This document shows, piece after piece, positions 47,646 to 55,348 of a stretch of 64,000 nt of DNA (its first letter is position 1; each line of letters begins with the position of its first letter). The stretch is from Acidobacteriota bacterium (GTDB lineage Bacteria; Acidobacteriota; Holophagae; Holophagales; Holophagaceae): contig BJFQ01000004.1 in assembly GCA_014189895.1 (NCBI GenBank), positions 1-64,000 of the forward strand, written 5' to 3'. The notes below the pieces were generated by a model, which searched no databases, was not told where the DNA came from, and worked only from the letters and a program-made list of their open reading frames with translations. A program made the translations under genes and the position numbers.

Positions 47646-47673
47646 TTGAGTCCTTAAAATAAGGTCATATTCT
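47646..47673 (+). promoter_or_regulatory. Possible sufB promoter
   Basis: TTGAGT (47646-47651) and TATTCT (47668-47673) resemble -35 and -10 boxes with a 16-nt spacer, each matching four of six consensus bases. They lie just before the large inverted repeat in front of sufB. The match is modest and the call is tentative. Confidence 0.3.
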
Positions 47674-47680
47674 AGATTTT

Positions 47681-47709
47681 TAATTGTGGACTTTTTAAGT
47701 CCACAATTA
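47681..47709. promoter_or_regulatory. Perfect inverted repeat upstream of sufB (operator or leader hairpin)
   Basis: TAATTGTGGACTT (47681-47693) and AAGTCCACAATTA (47697-47709) are exact 13-bp arms around TTT, ending 28 nt before sufB. It starts 8 nt after the possible -10 box, where an operator would block transcription. An Rrf2/IscR-like Fe-S regulator is an attractive candidate, but the sequence does not match the E. coli IscR sites closely. There is no T-run, so a terminator for the TPR gene is less likely. Confidence 0.6.
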
Positions 47710-47737
47710 TACTTATGTTTAGAGATACAGGATACTT

Positions 47738-49177
47738 ATGGCCCAAGATTTAAGCGCCCTGACTGGTCAAGCCTACAAATATGGCTTTGTGACCGATATT
47801 GAATCGGAATCAGTAGACCCAGGTCTTTCCGAGGATGTGATCCGCTTGATTTCGGCCAAAAAGAAAGAGCCCGAATGGTTGTTGGCTTGGCGACTTAAGG
47901 CTTACCAACATTGGCTCACCATGACCGAACCTGAGTGGGCCCACGTTCATTACACGAAACCTAACTATAACGAGATTGTTTATTACTCCGCCCCCAAACC
48001 TAAGCAGGCAAAATATACTTCTATGGATGAAGTAGATCCAGAACTACTTCGAACCTTCGAAAAGCTAGGCGTTCCCATCCATGAGCAAGCTGCCCTAGCT
48101 GGAGTGGCAGTAGACGTCGTGTTTGATTCGGTATCCGTTACCACGACCTACAAAGATCGCCTCGCTAAAGAAGGCATTATCTTCTGTTCCTTCAGTGAAG
48201 CGGTCCAAGAACATCCTGAACTCATCAAAAAATATCTTGGTTCCGTCGTCCCCCCTAGTGACAATTTTTTCGCCGCACTCAACAGCGCTGTGTTTACCGA
48301 TGGATCTTTTGTATTCATCCCTAAAGGCGTGAAATGCCCCATGGACTTGTCGACCTACTTCCGTATTAATAACAAGGAGAGTGGTCAATTTGAGCGCACT
48401 CTCATTGTGGCGGAAGAAGGAGCCACCGTGAGCTACCTCGAGGGGTGTACTGCCCCACAATTTGATACCAACCAGCTCCATGCGGCAGTCGTAGAACTCG
48501 TTGCCCTAGATCGTGCTGACATTAAATACAGTACCGTCCAGAATTGGTATGCTGGTGACGAAAAGGGAGTGGGGGGAATTTTTAACTTTGTGACCAAACG
48601 CGGTTTATGCAAAGGGATCAAAAGTAAAATCAGTTGGACACAGGTTGAAACAGGATCCGCCATCACTTGGAAATATCCGAGCTGCATTCTCTTAGGCGAT
48701 GACAGCGTGGGAGAGTTTTATTCCGTAGCGCTTACGAATCATTATCAGCAAGCTGACACGGGCACTAAAATGATTCATCTCGGGCGAAACACAAAAAGCA
48801 CCATCATTTCGAAAGGCATTGCTGCCGGAAAGAGTTCAAACGCCTATCGGGGTCTAGTCCGGGTGTCTCCTAAAGCCCAAGGGGCCCGTAATTTCAGCCA
48901 ATGTGATTCCATGCTGATCGGCTCTCTCTCTAGTGCCAATACCTTTCCCTATCTGGAAGTTAAGAATCCTTCGGCCAAAGTAGAACACGAAGCGACCACC
49001 AGTAAAATTGGAGAAGATCAGATCTTCTATCTTCAGCAGAGAGGAATTAATCCTGAAGAAGCTATTTCCATGATCATTAATGGTTTTTGTAAAGAAGTTT
49101 TCCGAGAACTTCCTATGGAATTCGCTGTGGAAGCTACAAAACTTCTCAGTCTCAAACTTGAAAACAGTGTTGGATAA
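47738..49177 (+). CDS. sufB: Fe-S cluster assembly scaffold subunit SufB
   Basis: SufB forms, with SufC and SufD, the scaffold on which Fe-S clusters are built. The 479-residue protein has the family order: [13 protein letters not shown] near 50, [34 protein letters not shown], and a right-handed beta-helix core, ending with the [14 protein letters not shown] segment shared with SufD. The start ATG 47738 follows ACAGGA at a suitable distance. It is the first gene of sufBCDSU-nfu. Confidence 0.97.
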
Positions 49178-49187
49178 GGATCTCGTC

Positions 49188-49940
49188 ATGCTCTCTATTA
49201 AAAACTTAACCGCTTCCGTACAAGAGATTCCAGTCCTCAAGGGGATCTCTTTAGAAATTAAAGCGGGTGAAATCCATGCCATCATGGGCCCCAATGGTTC
49301 TGGAAAAAGCACGCTAGGCAAAGTCCTGGCGGGTCACCCCGCTTATGAGGTCACCGGAGGCGAAGTGACCTTCCTCGACAAAAATTTATTCGACATGGAG
49401 GCTGATGAACGGGCTCGCCAAGGTCTCTTTTTGGGATTTCAATATCCCATCGAAGTCCCAGGCGTCAGTAATTCTCAGTTCTTACGCATGGCTTACAACA
49501 AAAGAGCCGAAGCCCTCGGCAATGAAGAACTCGATCCCTTAGAATTTGAAGATTTTATTCACGCCAAAACAGAACTCGTCGGCATGAGCGATATATTTCT
49601 TGACCGAAGTGTCAATGAGGGGTTTTCAGGTGGAGAAAAGAAACGAAATGAAATCTTACAGATGGCAGTCTTGAATCCTGCGCTCGCAATTTTGGACGAA
49701 ACCGATTCTGGATTAGATATTGATGCTCTACGCATTGTCGGAAGTGCCATTACTCAACTCCGACGACCAGATAATGCGACCATTCTCATCACTCACTATC
49801 AACGCCTTCTTGATCATGTCGCGCCTGACTTTGTTCATGTCCTTCAAGCCGGTCGAATCATTAAATCAGGAGGGCCGGAATTAGCCCTTCGGCTAGAAAA
49901 AGAAGGATACGACTGGCTCCTTGAAGAAACTCGCCCCTAA
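49188..49940 (+). CDS. sufC: Fe-S assembly ATPase SufC
   Basis: SufC is the ABC-type ATPase of the SufBCD complex. The protein of 250 residues begins MLSIKNLTA at ATG 49188 with AAGGA 7 nt before; the frame is open 36 codons further up, but that would overlap sufB. Walker A is GPNGSGKST near 34-42, the signature is [11 protein letters not shown], and Walker B is [14 protein letters not shown]. It ends in TAATG, sharing a base with the sufD start. Confidence 0.97.
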
Positions 49941-51184
49941 TGGTGATGTCTTTGGCTTCTCTCTTTCCGGCGACCGTCTTAGAGGCGCAGGGTTCCCCTG
50001 CTTGGCAAACACTGCAACGCCAAGACCAAGTAGCCTGGGCTTCGATGCCCCTGCCCACCCTTCAGGATGAAGATTGGAAATATTTTGACTTACGTCCGCT
50101 GAACGATGTGACGTACGTCTCAGTTTCCGACACCCAGGTTCCGATTACTCTTCACGTTGAACCTTCATCTCTTCGTCTTTACTGGAATCAGGGTCGGCTC
50201 CAATTACCCGCTGCGCTTCCCGACGGAATTATCTTACGTCCTCTCGCCCCTCAAGTGCGTTCCACATCTCGTTTAGATCAAGATTATTTCTTCCGCATGA
50301 ACCAATCTTTCTTCCCCGAGGCGTATGAATTAAGAATCCAAAAGAGTTTTCACGCCAAGGATCCTATTTATCTAGAGAGTGCTCTCGAAGGATCTGCTCA
50401 AAACGTGGCTTTAGCTTTTTCGAGACTTCATATCGTGGTGGAATCAGGCGCTGACGTGCAAATTGTTGAGCGTTTTAAAGGTTCCCATGCGTATCATCTC
50501 ATTTCAGTCGTCACGCTAGAGATCGAAAAAGAAGCACAGATGGATTTTGAACGCCTCCACTATGATGCTTCCGTATCTTTTCATTTCTCCTATCTTCAAG
50601 CCCGCGTCGGACGAGGAGCTCACTTAGGGGTTCGCACTGTAGGCCTAGGATCTCGACTTCGTCGCGACATCCCGGATATCTTTCTAGAGGAAGCTGCGAA
50701 CGTGGAACTCGACGGTTTGTGTCTCTTAGGGGACCAACAACTCGGCGATACCCATAGCTTTATTCATCACGCTCATCCTCACGCTCAGTCCCGTCAACTT
50801 CACAAATGTATTGTTCAGGATCGCAGCAAAGGTATTTTTAACGGCCAGATTCTGGTCGCACTCAATGCGCAACAAACTGATGCGCAGCAGGAGAGTCGCA
50901 ATTTAATTTTGGGCGATCACGCGAGTATTGATACCAAGCCTCAGCTCGAAATCTATGCCGATGATGTGAAGTGTGCTCATGGTGCCACCATTGGCCAACT
51001 AGATCCCGATGAATTGTTTTATCTACAAAGCCGTGGGTTTTCAGAGACTGCAGCTCGAGGGCTTCTGACTTTTGCTTTTGCTTCAGATCTTCTAGGGCGT
51101 ATTCAAGTCCCATTACTCCAAAAGGCTCTCAAACAGGAAATAATTCATCGACTGCAGATGGAGATCCTCGGAGAACTCTCATGA
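49940..51184 (+). CDS. sufD: Fe-S cluster assembly protein SufD
   Basis: SufD is a SufB paralogue that completes the SufBC2D complex and helps iron entry. The 414-residue protein has a variable N-terminal helical part, the beta-helix core with DTHSFIHHAHPHAQSRQLHK, and the C-terminal KCAHGATIGQLDPDELFYLQSRG signature. The conserved Cys and His used for cluster formation (VKCAHGAT and the HHAHPHA segment) are present. Its ATG overlaps the sufC stop by one base, and its end overlaps sufS by 4 nt (ATGA), so the genes are strongly coupled. ATG 49946 is an alternative start. Confidence 0.94.
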   Translation: MVMSLASLFPATVLEAQGSPAWQTLQRQDQVAWASMPLPTLQDEDWKYFDLRPLNDVTYVSVSDTQVPITLHVEPSSLRLYWNQGRLQLPAALPDGIILRPLAPQVRSTSRLDQDYFFRMNQSFFPEAYELRIQKSFHAKDPIYLESALEGSAQNVALAFSRLHIVVESGADVQIVERFKGSHAYHLISVVTLEIEKEAQMDFERLHYDASVSFHFSYLQARVGRGAHLGVRTVGLGSRLRRDIPDIFLEEAANVELDGLCLLGDQQLGDTHSFIHHAHPHAQSRQLHKCIVQDRSKGIFNGQILVALNAQQTDAQQESRNLILGDHASIDTKPQLEIYADDVKCAHGATIGQLDPDELFYLQSRGFSETAARGLLTFAFASDLLGRIQVPLLQKALKQEIIHRLQMEILGELS

Positions 51185-52410
51185 CCTACTCCGTTAGTCG
51201 CATCCGAAAAGACTTCCCTCTCCTCGATCGGCCCTTTAACAAGAAGCCTCTTTATTACCTCGACAGTGCTGTGAGTGGACAAATGCCTATCTCCGTGATT
51301 GAGCGGATGCGGAATTACGAAATGTACGAACACACCAACGTTCATCGCGGGGTCTCAACGCTCAGTCAAGAAGCGACGGATCACTTTGAAATGGCACGCA
51401 CCACCGTGGCTCAGTTTCTGAATGCGTCTTCGACTAAAGAAATTATTTGGACACGCGGAACTACCGAAGCAATCAATCTCGTGGCTCAAACGTGGGGCCG
51501 TCAAAACATTAAAGAGGGTGACGCAATCTGTCTGACTGAAATGGAACATCATGCCAATATTGTTCCTTGGCAGATGCTCGCCCAATCCGTTGGGGCCCAT
51601 CTCAACATTATTCCCGTCGACGATCAAGGTGAACTTCGTCTTGATGAACTCTCAAAAGTCCTTTCGCCCCAGACCAAAATATTAGCCCTCACACATGTCA
51701 GCAATGTCCTCGGCACCATTAATCCGATCAAAAAAATCATTACCGCGGCCAAACAGCAAATTCCCACTCTGACGGTACTCGTGGATGGAGCCCAAGCCGT
51801 TCCCCACCTCCCTGTAGATGTCCGAGACCTCGGCGCTGATTTTTACACGTTCAGCGGGCACAAACTTTCCGGACCTACCGGTATCGGAATCCTCTATGGC
51901 CGTAAAGCCCTATTGGATGCCATGCCTCCATGGCACGGAGGAGGCAACATGATCCTCTCCGTGACGTGGGATAAGACCACCTATATCGAGGCCCCTGGAA
52001 AATTTGAAGCGGGAACACCTCCTATTGCCGCCGCCATTGGCTTAGGAGAAGCGATTCGTTACCTCTCCAAACTCGATCCTCAAGACGTGCATGCTCACGA
52101 GCAACACCTACTTCGCCGAGCTTCTGAAGGTTTAAAGAAAATACCGGGTCTTCGCATCCTCGGAGAATCTTCGAATAAAGTCAGTGTGATCTCCTTTGTG
52201 GTAGAAGGAGTACACCCTCATGATCTTGGAACTTTACTCGATCATGAGGGCATCGTGATCCGTGCCGGACATCATTGCGCCCAACCTTTAATGGATCGAT
52301 TTCAGGTGCCCGCAACGACACGAGCCTCAATTGCTTATTACAACAACGAATCCGATGTCGATGCGCTTATCCAAGCGACTCAGAAATCTGTGGAGATGTT
52401 CCATGGCTGA
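51181..52410 (+). CDS. sufS: Cysteine desulfurase SufS
   Basis: SufS is a group II cysteine desulfurase, a PLP enzyme that supplies sulfur as a persulfide. In the 409-residue protein K228 in SGHKLSG binds PLP, and C366 in RAGHHCAQP is the catalytic cysteine. MEHHANIVPW and VLVDGAQAVPH (with the PLP-binding Asp and Gln) are also clear. The partner here is SufU, which transfers the sulfur through a zinc-dependent exchange, as in Bacillus; no sufE is present. Confidence 0.97.
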   Translation: MTYSVSRIRKDFPLLDRPFNKKPLYYLDSAVSGQMPISVIERMRNYEMYEHTNVHRGVSTLSQEATDHFEMARTTVAQFLNASSTKEIIWTRGTTEAINLVAQTWGRQNIKEGDAICLTEMEHHANIVPWQMLAQSVGAHLNIIPVDDQGELRLDELSKVLSPQTKILALTHVSNVLGTINPIKKIITAAKQQIPTLTVLVDGAQAVPHLPVDVRDLGADFYTFSGHKLSGPTGIGILYGRKALLDAMPPWHGGGNMILSVTWDKTTYIEAPGKFEAGTPPIAAAIGLGEAIRYLSKLDPQDVHAHEQHLLRRASEGLKKIPGLRILGESSNKVSVISFVVEGVHPHDLGTLLDHEGIVIRAGHHCAQPLMDRFQVPATTRASIAYYNNESDVDALIQATQKSVEMFHG

Positions 52411-52849
52411 TTCAAGGGAACTTTATCAGCAGGTCATTCTAGAACATAATAAAAAGCCTCGTAATTTTGGCAAAATCAATGGCTGTACCCATCAAGCGGA
52501 AGGTCACAACCCGCTGTGTGGCGATCAACTCCAACTTACCTTGATAGTCCATGAAGACATCATCGAAGATATTCAATTTGAAGGGCGAGGATGCGCTATT
52601 GATGTCTCGAGTGCCTCCCTCATGACCACAGCGGTCAAAGGGAAGACTGTTCAAGATGCTTTAAAGCTCATCCAAGGCTTTCGAGCGTTGCTTCGAGGTG
52701 AATGGAATCCGGCGACACATGGAGATCTCGGGAAACTGGTGGTCTTTCAGGGGGTTAAGAATTTTCCCGTGCGTGTCAAATGCGCTGTCCTCCCTTGGGC
52801 CACCCTTCAAAGTGCGCTTGATGGTTCTCCCATCGCTTCCACGGAGTAA
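52403..52849 (+). CDS. sufU: Sulfur acceptor SufU
   Basis: SufU takes the persulfide from SufS and passes it to SufBCD. The protein of 148 residues begins MADSRELYQQVILEHNKKPR at ATG 52403, overlapping the end of sufS by 8 nt. The zinc ligands match the Bacillus enzyme: C39 and D41 (PLCGDQ), C64 (GRGCAI) and C127 (VKCAVL). The retained Asp and the zinc site separate it from IscU-type scaffolds. Confidence 0.94.
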   Translation: MADSRELYQQVILEHNKKPRNFGKINGCTHQAEGHNPLCGDQLQLTLIVHEDIIEDIQFEGRGCAIDVSSASLMTTAVKGKTVQDALKLIQGFRALLRGEWNPATHGDLGKLVVFQGVKNFPVRVKCAVLPWATLQSALDGSPIASTE

Positions 52850-52851
52850 CT

Positions 52852-53406
52852 GTGCCAAAAATTGCAGAAATCGAATATACCCCCAACCCTAATGCCGTTA
52901 AGTTTCTCTTGAAAGAGAGTATCGCGAAGGGATTTCCTAAAAACTTTCCTTCGGCTGAAGTGTCTGCGTCTGATCCTCTGGCCAAAAGTTTATTTGAGGT
53001 GGGTCATGTTCTGTCAATTTACATGCAGGATAAATGGATCACTGTCACGAAGGACGACCACACCACCTGGACCGACCTCTTACCCAAACTCGCGGCCCCC
53101 ATTCGTTCTTTCCAAGTCAGCGATACGCCAGTCGACGCTCCCCCCTCTCGGGTCGCAAGCGATCTTTATGATCCCAATGATCCGATTCTCCAGAAGGTCC
53201 AAGCGGTCCTAAACGAAACGATTTTGCCCGCCTTAGCCTCCGACGGAGGTGGCCTTGAGGTTGTTGGACGACATGAAAAGCAGATCCTCATACGCTATCA
53301 AGGCGCTTGTGGAACCTGCCCCAGCAGTCTGACGGGCACCCTCGCGGCGATTGAAAATCTCATCCATCAAAAGATTGACCCAGAGTTGACCGTCGTCTCG
53401 GTCTGA
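52852..53406 (+). CDS. Nfu-type Fe-S cluster carrier, copy 2 (end of suf operon)
   Basis: The 184-residue protein repeats the plan of the protein at 9185-9730: N-terminal Nfu domain (EYTPNPNAVKF) and C-terminal NifU-like domain with LASDGGGLEV and C153-x-x-C156 in GACGTCPSS. GTG 52852 has GGAG 5 nt before it and starts 2 nt after the sufU stop, so it is the last gene of the suf operon and probably carries clusters from SufBCD to target enzymes. Together the window holds two such carriers. Confidence 0.9.
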   Translation: MPKIAEIEYTPNPNAVKFLLKESIAKGFPKNFPSAEVSASDPLAKSLFEVGHVLSIYMQDKWITVTKDDHTTWTDLLPKLAAPIRSFQVSDTPVDAPPSRVASDLYDPNDPILQKVQAVLNETILPALASDGGGLEVVGRHEKQILIRYQGACGTCPSSLTGTLAAIENLIHQKIDPELTVVSV

Positions 53407-55312: not shown

Positions 55313-55348
55313 CTCAAAAAAAGAGGCCTTTTGGCCTCTTTTTTTGAG
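55313..55348 (+). terminator. Rho-independent terminator after rpsA
   Basis: CTCAAAAAAAGAGGCC (55313-55328) and GGCCTCTTTTTTTGAG (55333-55348) form a perfect 16-bp stem with a TTTT loop. Seven T follow the GC part on one side and seven A precede it, so it can work in both directions. It closes the rpsA transcript. Confidence 0.9.

Follow-up and report, generated by a model that had tools for sequence, protein, structure and literature searches.

A palindrome at the suf promoter of a Holophagaceae bacterium is probably the operator of its single Rrf2 protein, an IscR-like regulator with a C-terminal cysteine tail

Among described operators of Rrf2-family Fe-S regulators, that of Myxococcus xanthus RisR offers a close counterpart to the site considered here: its motif, T(t/g)GAC-N7-GTCC(t/a), derives from DNase footprints on the suf and isc promoters, the protected region at suf overlaps the -35 and -10 elements, and disruption of one half-site increased reporter output 3-fold at isc and 4-fold at suf (PMC9973013). 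According to the available portions of the same paper, risR immediately precedes the suf operon, RisR uses Cys92/102/108, and RisR sites diverge from IscR sites in the authors' own assessment. The Escherichia coli IscR type-1 site (ATASYYGACTRWWWYAGTCRRSTAT, as given in the available part of PMC6599224) has the core GACT-N5-AGTC, and the cluster cysteines of both proteins (C92/98/104 in E. coli IscR, C92/102/108 in RisR) lie between the wing and the dimer helix. The IscR-like repressor of Rhodobacter sphaeroides uses non-canonical cluster ligands, with a single cysteine involved (PMC4618611, available part). The open-licence literature searched showed no study of Fe-S assembly under Rrf2 control in Geothrix and its relatives; the combination of Rrf2, Acidobacteria and suf operon returned the RisR paper only, and none of the matches listed for Geothrix with Fe-S terms mentions Geothrix.

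The locus described here lies in a window (that is, the whole 64-kb stretch of DNA that was analysed) of a Holophagaceae genome (G000). An initial annotation had pointed to a perfect 13-bp inverted repeat at the head of the suf operon, and this repeat is indeed present. It occupies exactly 47681-47709, within the 95 bp that separate a TPR-protein gene (stop codon 47640-47642) from sufB (ATG 47738), and its 3′ end lies 28 bp upstream of the ATG (Table 1). Among the perfect inverted repeats of the window (0-12 bp spacer) it ranks second in length, and 40 dinucleotide shuffles of all 64 kb yielded one repeat of at least 13 bp in total. Elsewhere in the window (55313-55348), 3′ of a gene that reads by eye as ribosomal protein S1, a perfect inverted repeat of 16 bp is accompanied by an A-run and a T-run; it resembles a common intrinsic terminator, perhaps one that works in both directions.

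Table 1 Features of the suf locus and its promoter region, in window coordinates
Feature	Position	Strand	Remarks
Perfect inverted repeat, proposed Rrf2/IscR-type operator	47681..47709	.	13-bp arms, 3-bp centre; TAATTGTGGACTT-TTT-AAGTCCACAATTA
Weak -35 TTGTGG	47684-47689	+	Inferred; inside left arm of the palindrome; 18-bp spacer to TATACT
Core TGGAC-N7-GTCCA (contains GACT-N5-AGTC)	47687..47703	.	16/17 columns identical in three genomes of the genus; agrees with the RisR motif from footprints
Likely -10 hexamer TATACT	47708..47713	+	Read from sequence; overlaps 3′ end of the palindrome; kept in G000, G001 and G002
sufB	47738..49177	+	NCBIfam PRK11814 and TIGR01980 over cut-off
sufC	49188..49940	+	TIGR01978 over cut-off; mechanical ORF from 49080, SufC profile match starts at residue 37-38, site of an ATG
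sufD	49940..51184	+	TIGR01981 over cut-off
sufS, cysteine desulfurase	51181..52410	+	TIGR01979 over cut-off
sufU	52403..52849	+	TIGR01994 over cut-off; mechanical ORF from 52331, likely ATG 52403
Nfu-type carrier	52852..53406	+	Pfam Nfu_N and NifU over cut-off

The palindrome contains the GAC-N7-GTC dyad by which Rrf2 operators of the IscR and RisR kind are recognized and matches every specified position of the RisR motif. It shares with the M. xanthus operator this core, AT-rich flanks and a probable location at the suf promoter, whereas the M. xanthus palindrome is imperfect and the present one is perfect over its 13-bp arms. Against the E. coli IscR type-1 consensus it matches 19 of 25 positions, including GACT-N5-AGTC at the same spacing, and differs in having G rather than a pyrimidine before GACT, the centre TTTTA and a different outer flank; the same degree of fit (76%) has been published for site B of the Pseudomonas aeruginosa iscR promoter (PMC6599224, available part). 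We rejected this score as stand-alone evidence, given that shuffled 64-kb windows usually peak at 19/25 (best score 18 in 10, 19 in 25 and 20 in 5 of the 40 shuffles), and it carries weight only because of the location of the palindrome at suf. Moreover, as RisR and IscR sites diverge, the fit to both cores is a fit to the shared GAC-N7-GTC only. The site had initially been thought not to resemble known IscR sites closely and perhaps to define a new Fe-S regulator site; with the RisR motif fully matched and 19 of 25 type-1 positions in agreement, neither idea can be upheld. This kind of site is already known from IscR and RisR, and the remaining point of interest is the regulator variant.

The palindrome had also been placed just after a possible promoter, an arrangement that finds no support: a sigma-70 consensus scan of the sufB gap returned no plus-strand site (only one, on the minus strand), and the candidate -10 hexamer overlaps the repeat. 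All three species of the genus retain this -10-like TATACT, which runs into the 3′ end of the repeat; it is therefore more probable that the palindrome lies over the suf promoter than downstream of it, although the promoter position itself is one that we infer from the letters. The operon downstream appears to be the main or only Fe-S assembly system of the genome (sufBCDSU-nfu), given that SufU carries the sole NifU_N domain found (a single PF01592 match in a genome that is 97% complete).

Across the three genomes of the genus (G000, G001 and G002), 27 of 29 palindrome columns are identical, as against 25 of 66 in the remainder of the gap, and the conserved block extends past the palindrome into TATACTT. 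The distance from sufB is nearly constant (-51, -51 and -50), and all three sufB promoters score 10/10 for TKGAC-N7-GTCMA within 170 bp. An operator at the suf promoter is well supported as a reading of the sequence, and the initial proposal that a repressor responsive to Fe-S status would bind here looks correct, with a RisR-type core that is kept in the genus.

Exactly one Rrf2 gene was found in G000. It encodes a protein of 171 amino acids and lies outside the window, on the minus strand of another contig (C5:33080-33592; L001:1384-1896). The absence of a nearby regulator gene, noted in the initial annotation, is thereby confirmed for this kind of regulator; with suf on C4 and the candidate on C5, the gene neither heads nor adjoins an isc or suf operon in the manner of iscR and risR, and M. 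xanthus risR in particular differs in this respect. The protein scores 102.3 bits for Pfam PF02082 (Rrf2; gathering score 30) and 101.4 bits for the NCBIfam IscR model TIGR02010 (under the cut-off of 207.55), and its closest solved relative is E. coli IscR (E 9e-22). An AlphaFold model of the G002 orthologue (L091; mean pLDDT 77) aligned by Foldseek to apo-IscR with a TM-score of 0.93 when normalized to the target and 0.66-0.67 when normalized to the query. By these comparisons the regulator is IscR-like, the model adding no more than agreement with the IscR fold.

What sets the protein apart from E. coli IscR, in addition to its score under the IscR cut-off, is the lack of the Cys3-His ligands. 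None of the 59 orthologues compared has a cysteine in residues 85-119 (that is, the region that holds the ligands of IscR and of RisR). Instead, 58 of the 59 possess a C-terminal C131-x7-C139-x2-C142-x-C144, the exception (L147) being a 135-aa frame that ends short of the tail, and C71 is present in all 59. The tail is a quartet, in contrast to the single cysteine of the R. sphaeroides protein. Among 396 genomes drawn from the phylum (E <= 1e-18), the matches that reach at least position 166 of the 169-position regulator model belong to Holophagaceae only, and those from other families all end at or before position 142. We propose, from these residue patterns, that the cysteine tail is a metal or cluster site; a structural zinc site on the same tail is an equal alternative to a cluster. 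In the literature on C-terminal cysteines in Rrf2 proteins, the available part of PMC5015018 applies 'C-terminal' to the usual Rrf2 ligand cysteines and does not refer to a tail motif by this term; a tail motif may have been described elsewhere.

The genome survey comprised 60 genomes including G000, of which 37 belong to Holophagaceae (family f1). A clear orthologue of the regulator (about 148 bits or more) is present in 32 of these 37, the remaining five being G001 and the four representatives of genus g2, of which G013 shows a single weak Rrf2 match. We scored a box at sufB in 32 upstream stretches with the gene start in hand, sought within 170 bp, using the motif TKGAC-N7-GTCMA, which was fixed after the promoters had been inspected; the start of G003 was recovered as L180 for scoring, and L045, which lacks the sufB start, was left out of the promoter alignment. 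None of the four g2 genomes reaches a score of 9, and the coincident lack of orthologue and sufB box in this genus is counted as support for the pairing of Rrf2 protein and operator. In the other genera outside that of G000 (g2 set aside), 17 of 25 sufB promoters reach 9-10, a level equalled in no more than 4% of shuffles, and the remaining 8 score 7-8, no better than shuffles. These counts do not represent independent events, as the genomes are related; furthermore, TTGAC doubles as the -35 hexamer in these genera, so only the right half of the box is independent evidence there, and this half is weak (GTATG-like) in g3 and g8.

Boxes also occur before the regulator's own gene. A scan with two peptide patterns taken from the orthologue alignment, which favour close relatives, found 59 loci, all labelled Holophagaceae, Geothrix, Holophaga or Acidobacteria except two metagenome-assembled genomes labelled Bacillota and Deltaproteobacteria. 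(L146, with its start missing, was left out of the 59 orthologue loci for the upstream-box and residue counts; the orthologue alignments A1 and A2 hold 23 of 30 and 29 of 59 loci, respectively.) In the 120 bp upstream of the orthologues, 25 of 58 loci score 9-10 (1.1% of shuffles) and 55 of 58 score at least 8 (13.5% of shuffles). An exact scan of 13 genomes for TTGAC-N8-TCRRGAWY gave 35 matches, versus 10 for the reversed pattern, and by coordinates 9 of the 35 are sufB promoters and 9 are the regulator's own promoters; because the pattern was drawn from those boxes, the scan speaks to its rarity elsewhere only and does not provide independent finds. In two of these 13 genomes, G005 (L164:1501-1521) and G022 (L166:1501-1521), a box begins 32 bp upstream of the start codon of a gene that by eye resembles ispH, which encodes an Fe-S enzyme, and this gene is a possible third target. 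Within the genus, the regulator's own gene has no upstream box (G000 and G002). The G000 genome measures 1.17 Mb, other genera of Holophagaceae having mostly 2-5 Mb, and a regulator gene without its own box in G000 is in keeping with genome streamlining.

In three Acidobacteriota of another family, a three-cysteine IscR-like gene precedes iscS/iscU-like genes (by eye), with TTGAC-N7-GTC boxes upstream of it that were found without a shuffle control. Three further Acidobacteriota with IscR-like matches (G145, G126 and G087) have no box (best 7/10). Over 14 genomes outside the family, the best match to TTGACT-N5-AGTCAA up to 1.1 kb before sufB was 9/12, compared with 11/12 in the family member G025; L197-L199, of 20 fetched stretches, were left out of this comparison. 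Six of these 14 genomes, members of family f3 and relatives within the class, have a different Rrf2 gene with at least three cysteines directly before sufB (L183-L188), so that the class may have seen an exchange of its suf regulator.

In G000 itself, the core occurs as a single exact copy in 1.17 Mb. Six further sites differ from it at one position, each of them inside an ORF, sites with up to two mismatches number 129 against 113 for the reversed control (that is, barely above it), and GACT-N5-AGTC alone occurs 13 times against 15; with one exact site and counts near the reversed control, we put forward no regulon for this genome. The initial annotation had named a motif confined to this one place among the results that would refute it. 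In G000 the motif is indeed found only here, yet it recurs at the sufB promoters of relatives and, in other genera, at those of the regulator. Given this recurrence, we do not take the single site in G000 as a refutation.

We thus consider it quite probable that the palindrome is the operator of the single Rrf2 protein, which would repress suf when Fe-S clusters suffice. The likely assignment of this protein as the cognate one follows the sequence comparisons above. Points that count against it are the missing box at the regulator's own gene in this genus, the score under the IscR cut-off and the loss of the wing residue Arg59. In the proposed mechanism, an Rrf2 homodimer would bind TGGAC-N7-GTCCA and block RNA polymerase at the sufBCDSU-nfu promoter, the site spanning the weak -35 to the -10 TATACT. 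Taking RisR, and IscR on type-1 sites, as models, we infer that the cluster-loaded form would bind and repress; iron shortage or oxidation would then cause loss of the cluster and release suf. C131-x7-C139-x2-C142-x-C144 may hold the metal or cluster in place of the usual ligands.

It is unlikely, in our estimation, that the palindrome instead serves another protein (that is, a Fur-family or undetected regulator), with the Rrf2 protein acting elsewhere. Two Fur-family proteins are encoded in G000, and G001 keeps the palindrome with no Rrf2 gene found. The G001 assembly, however, has a completeness of 84% and also lacks the gene that neighbours the regulator elsewhere, so the missing regulator is likely an assembly gap that probably includes its locus. 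Furthermore, a RisR-type core with GAC-N7-GTC is characteristic of Rrf2 sites, and in relatives the boxes stand at both sufB and Rrf2 promoters, which argues for the Rrf2 protein.

An RNA hairpin, acting either to terminate the TPR transcript or as an element of the suf 5′ leader, is a distinctly improbable reading. The palindrome does fold at -15.9 kcal/mol (z -5.5), but such a z-score is expected of any perfect inverted repeat, and although it is among the 4 matches of a lax terminator scan (2.1 expected), it is followed by TACTTATGTT, with no long T-run of the kind that marks an intrinsic terminator. In G002, one arm change breaks one pair with no compensating change (z -1.56 over a 60-nt stretch) and leaves the GAC-N7-GTC core intact, and the boxes of other genera are not long perfect palindromes. 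No Rfam family matched at its gathering score; the only hit, L20-leader, was sub-threshold (19.4 bits against 58.7, E 0.75), and an RNA leader of this type was rejected. Finally, that the palindrome arose by chance in this AT-rich gap, a view for which the one repeat in the shuffled windows leaves a little room, is hardly credible for a known operator core that stands at the expected promoter and is kept in three species amid a drifting background.

Returning to the Rrf2 protein and its operator, the regulator's DNA-reading residues also differ within the genus. Residues 44 and 59, which contact hya DNA in E. coli IscR (available parts of PMC9973013 and PMC9338935), are Gln and Arg in all 57 orthologues outside the genus, and Lys with Pro or Ser in the 2 within it; the IscR contact set E43, Q44 and R59 is accordingly represented in the genus by a retained E43 together with K44 and P59 or S59. 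Operator position -7 is G in 3/3 promoters of the genus versus T in 23 of 24 rows elsewhere, in a table that omits G025, G003 and G026 and in which the box was mis-picked in two g8 rows (L028 and L035, both also with TTGAC). This raises the suggestion that TTGAC became TGGAC and residues 44 and 59 changed together in the genus, as one evolutionary event to which no statistic attaches. A pairing of the loss of Arg59 with a change at operator position -10 was considered and rejected: 4 of the 24 rows from other genera likewise show T at -10, and the aligned regulators of three of these four genomes keep Arg59 (the fourth, G004, is outside the alignment). Among these two positions, only -7 (T to G) is particular to the genus.

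Taken together, we tentatively entertain, at somewhat less than an even chance, a broader scenario in which Holophagaceae possess a separate class of Rrf2 Fe-S sensor, with the cluster moved to a C-terminal C-x7-C-x2-C-x-C, that would control suf and its own gene through boxes of the IscR type; in the genus with the reduced genome, residues 44 and 59 and the operator would have changed jointly and self-control would have been lost, leaving a switch with one target.

Iron reducers are found among Geothrix and its relatives, and for these organisms the analysis links an otherwise unexplained palindrome to a candidate regulator, a pair that can be tested. If the cysteine tail does bind a cluster, it would represent a second sensor position in Rrf2 proteins. 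Up to 2022, IscR in its cluster-loaded form had been solved neither by itself nor bound to DNA (PMC9338935, available part). The changed genus, in turn, would offer a natural exchange of both the operator and the DNA-reading residues, through which the DNA choice of Rrf2 proteins may be approached.
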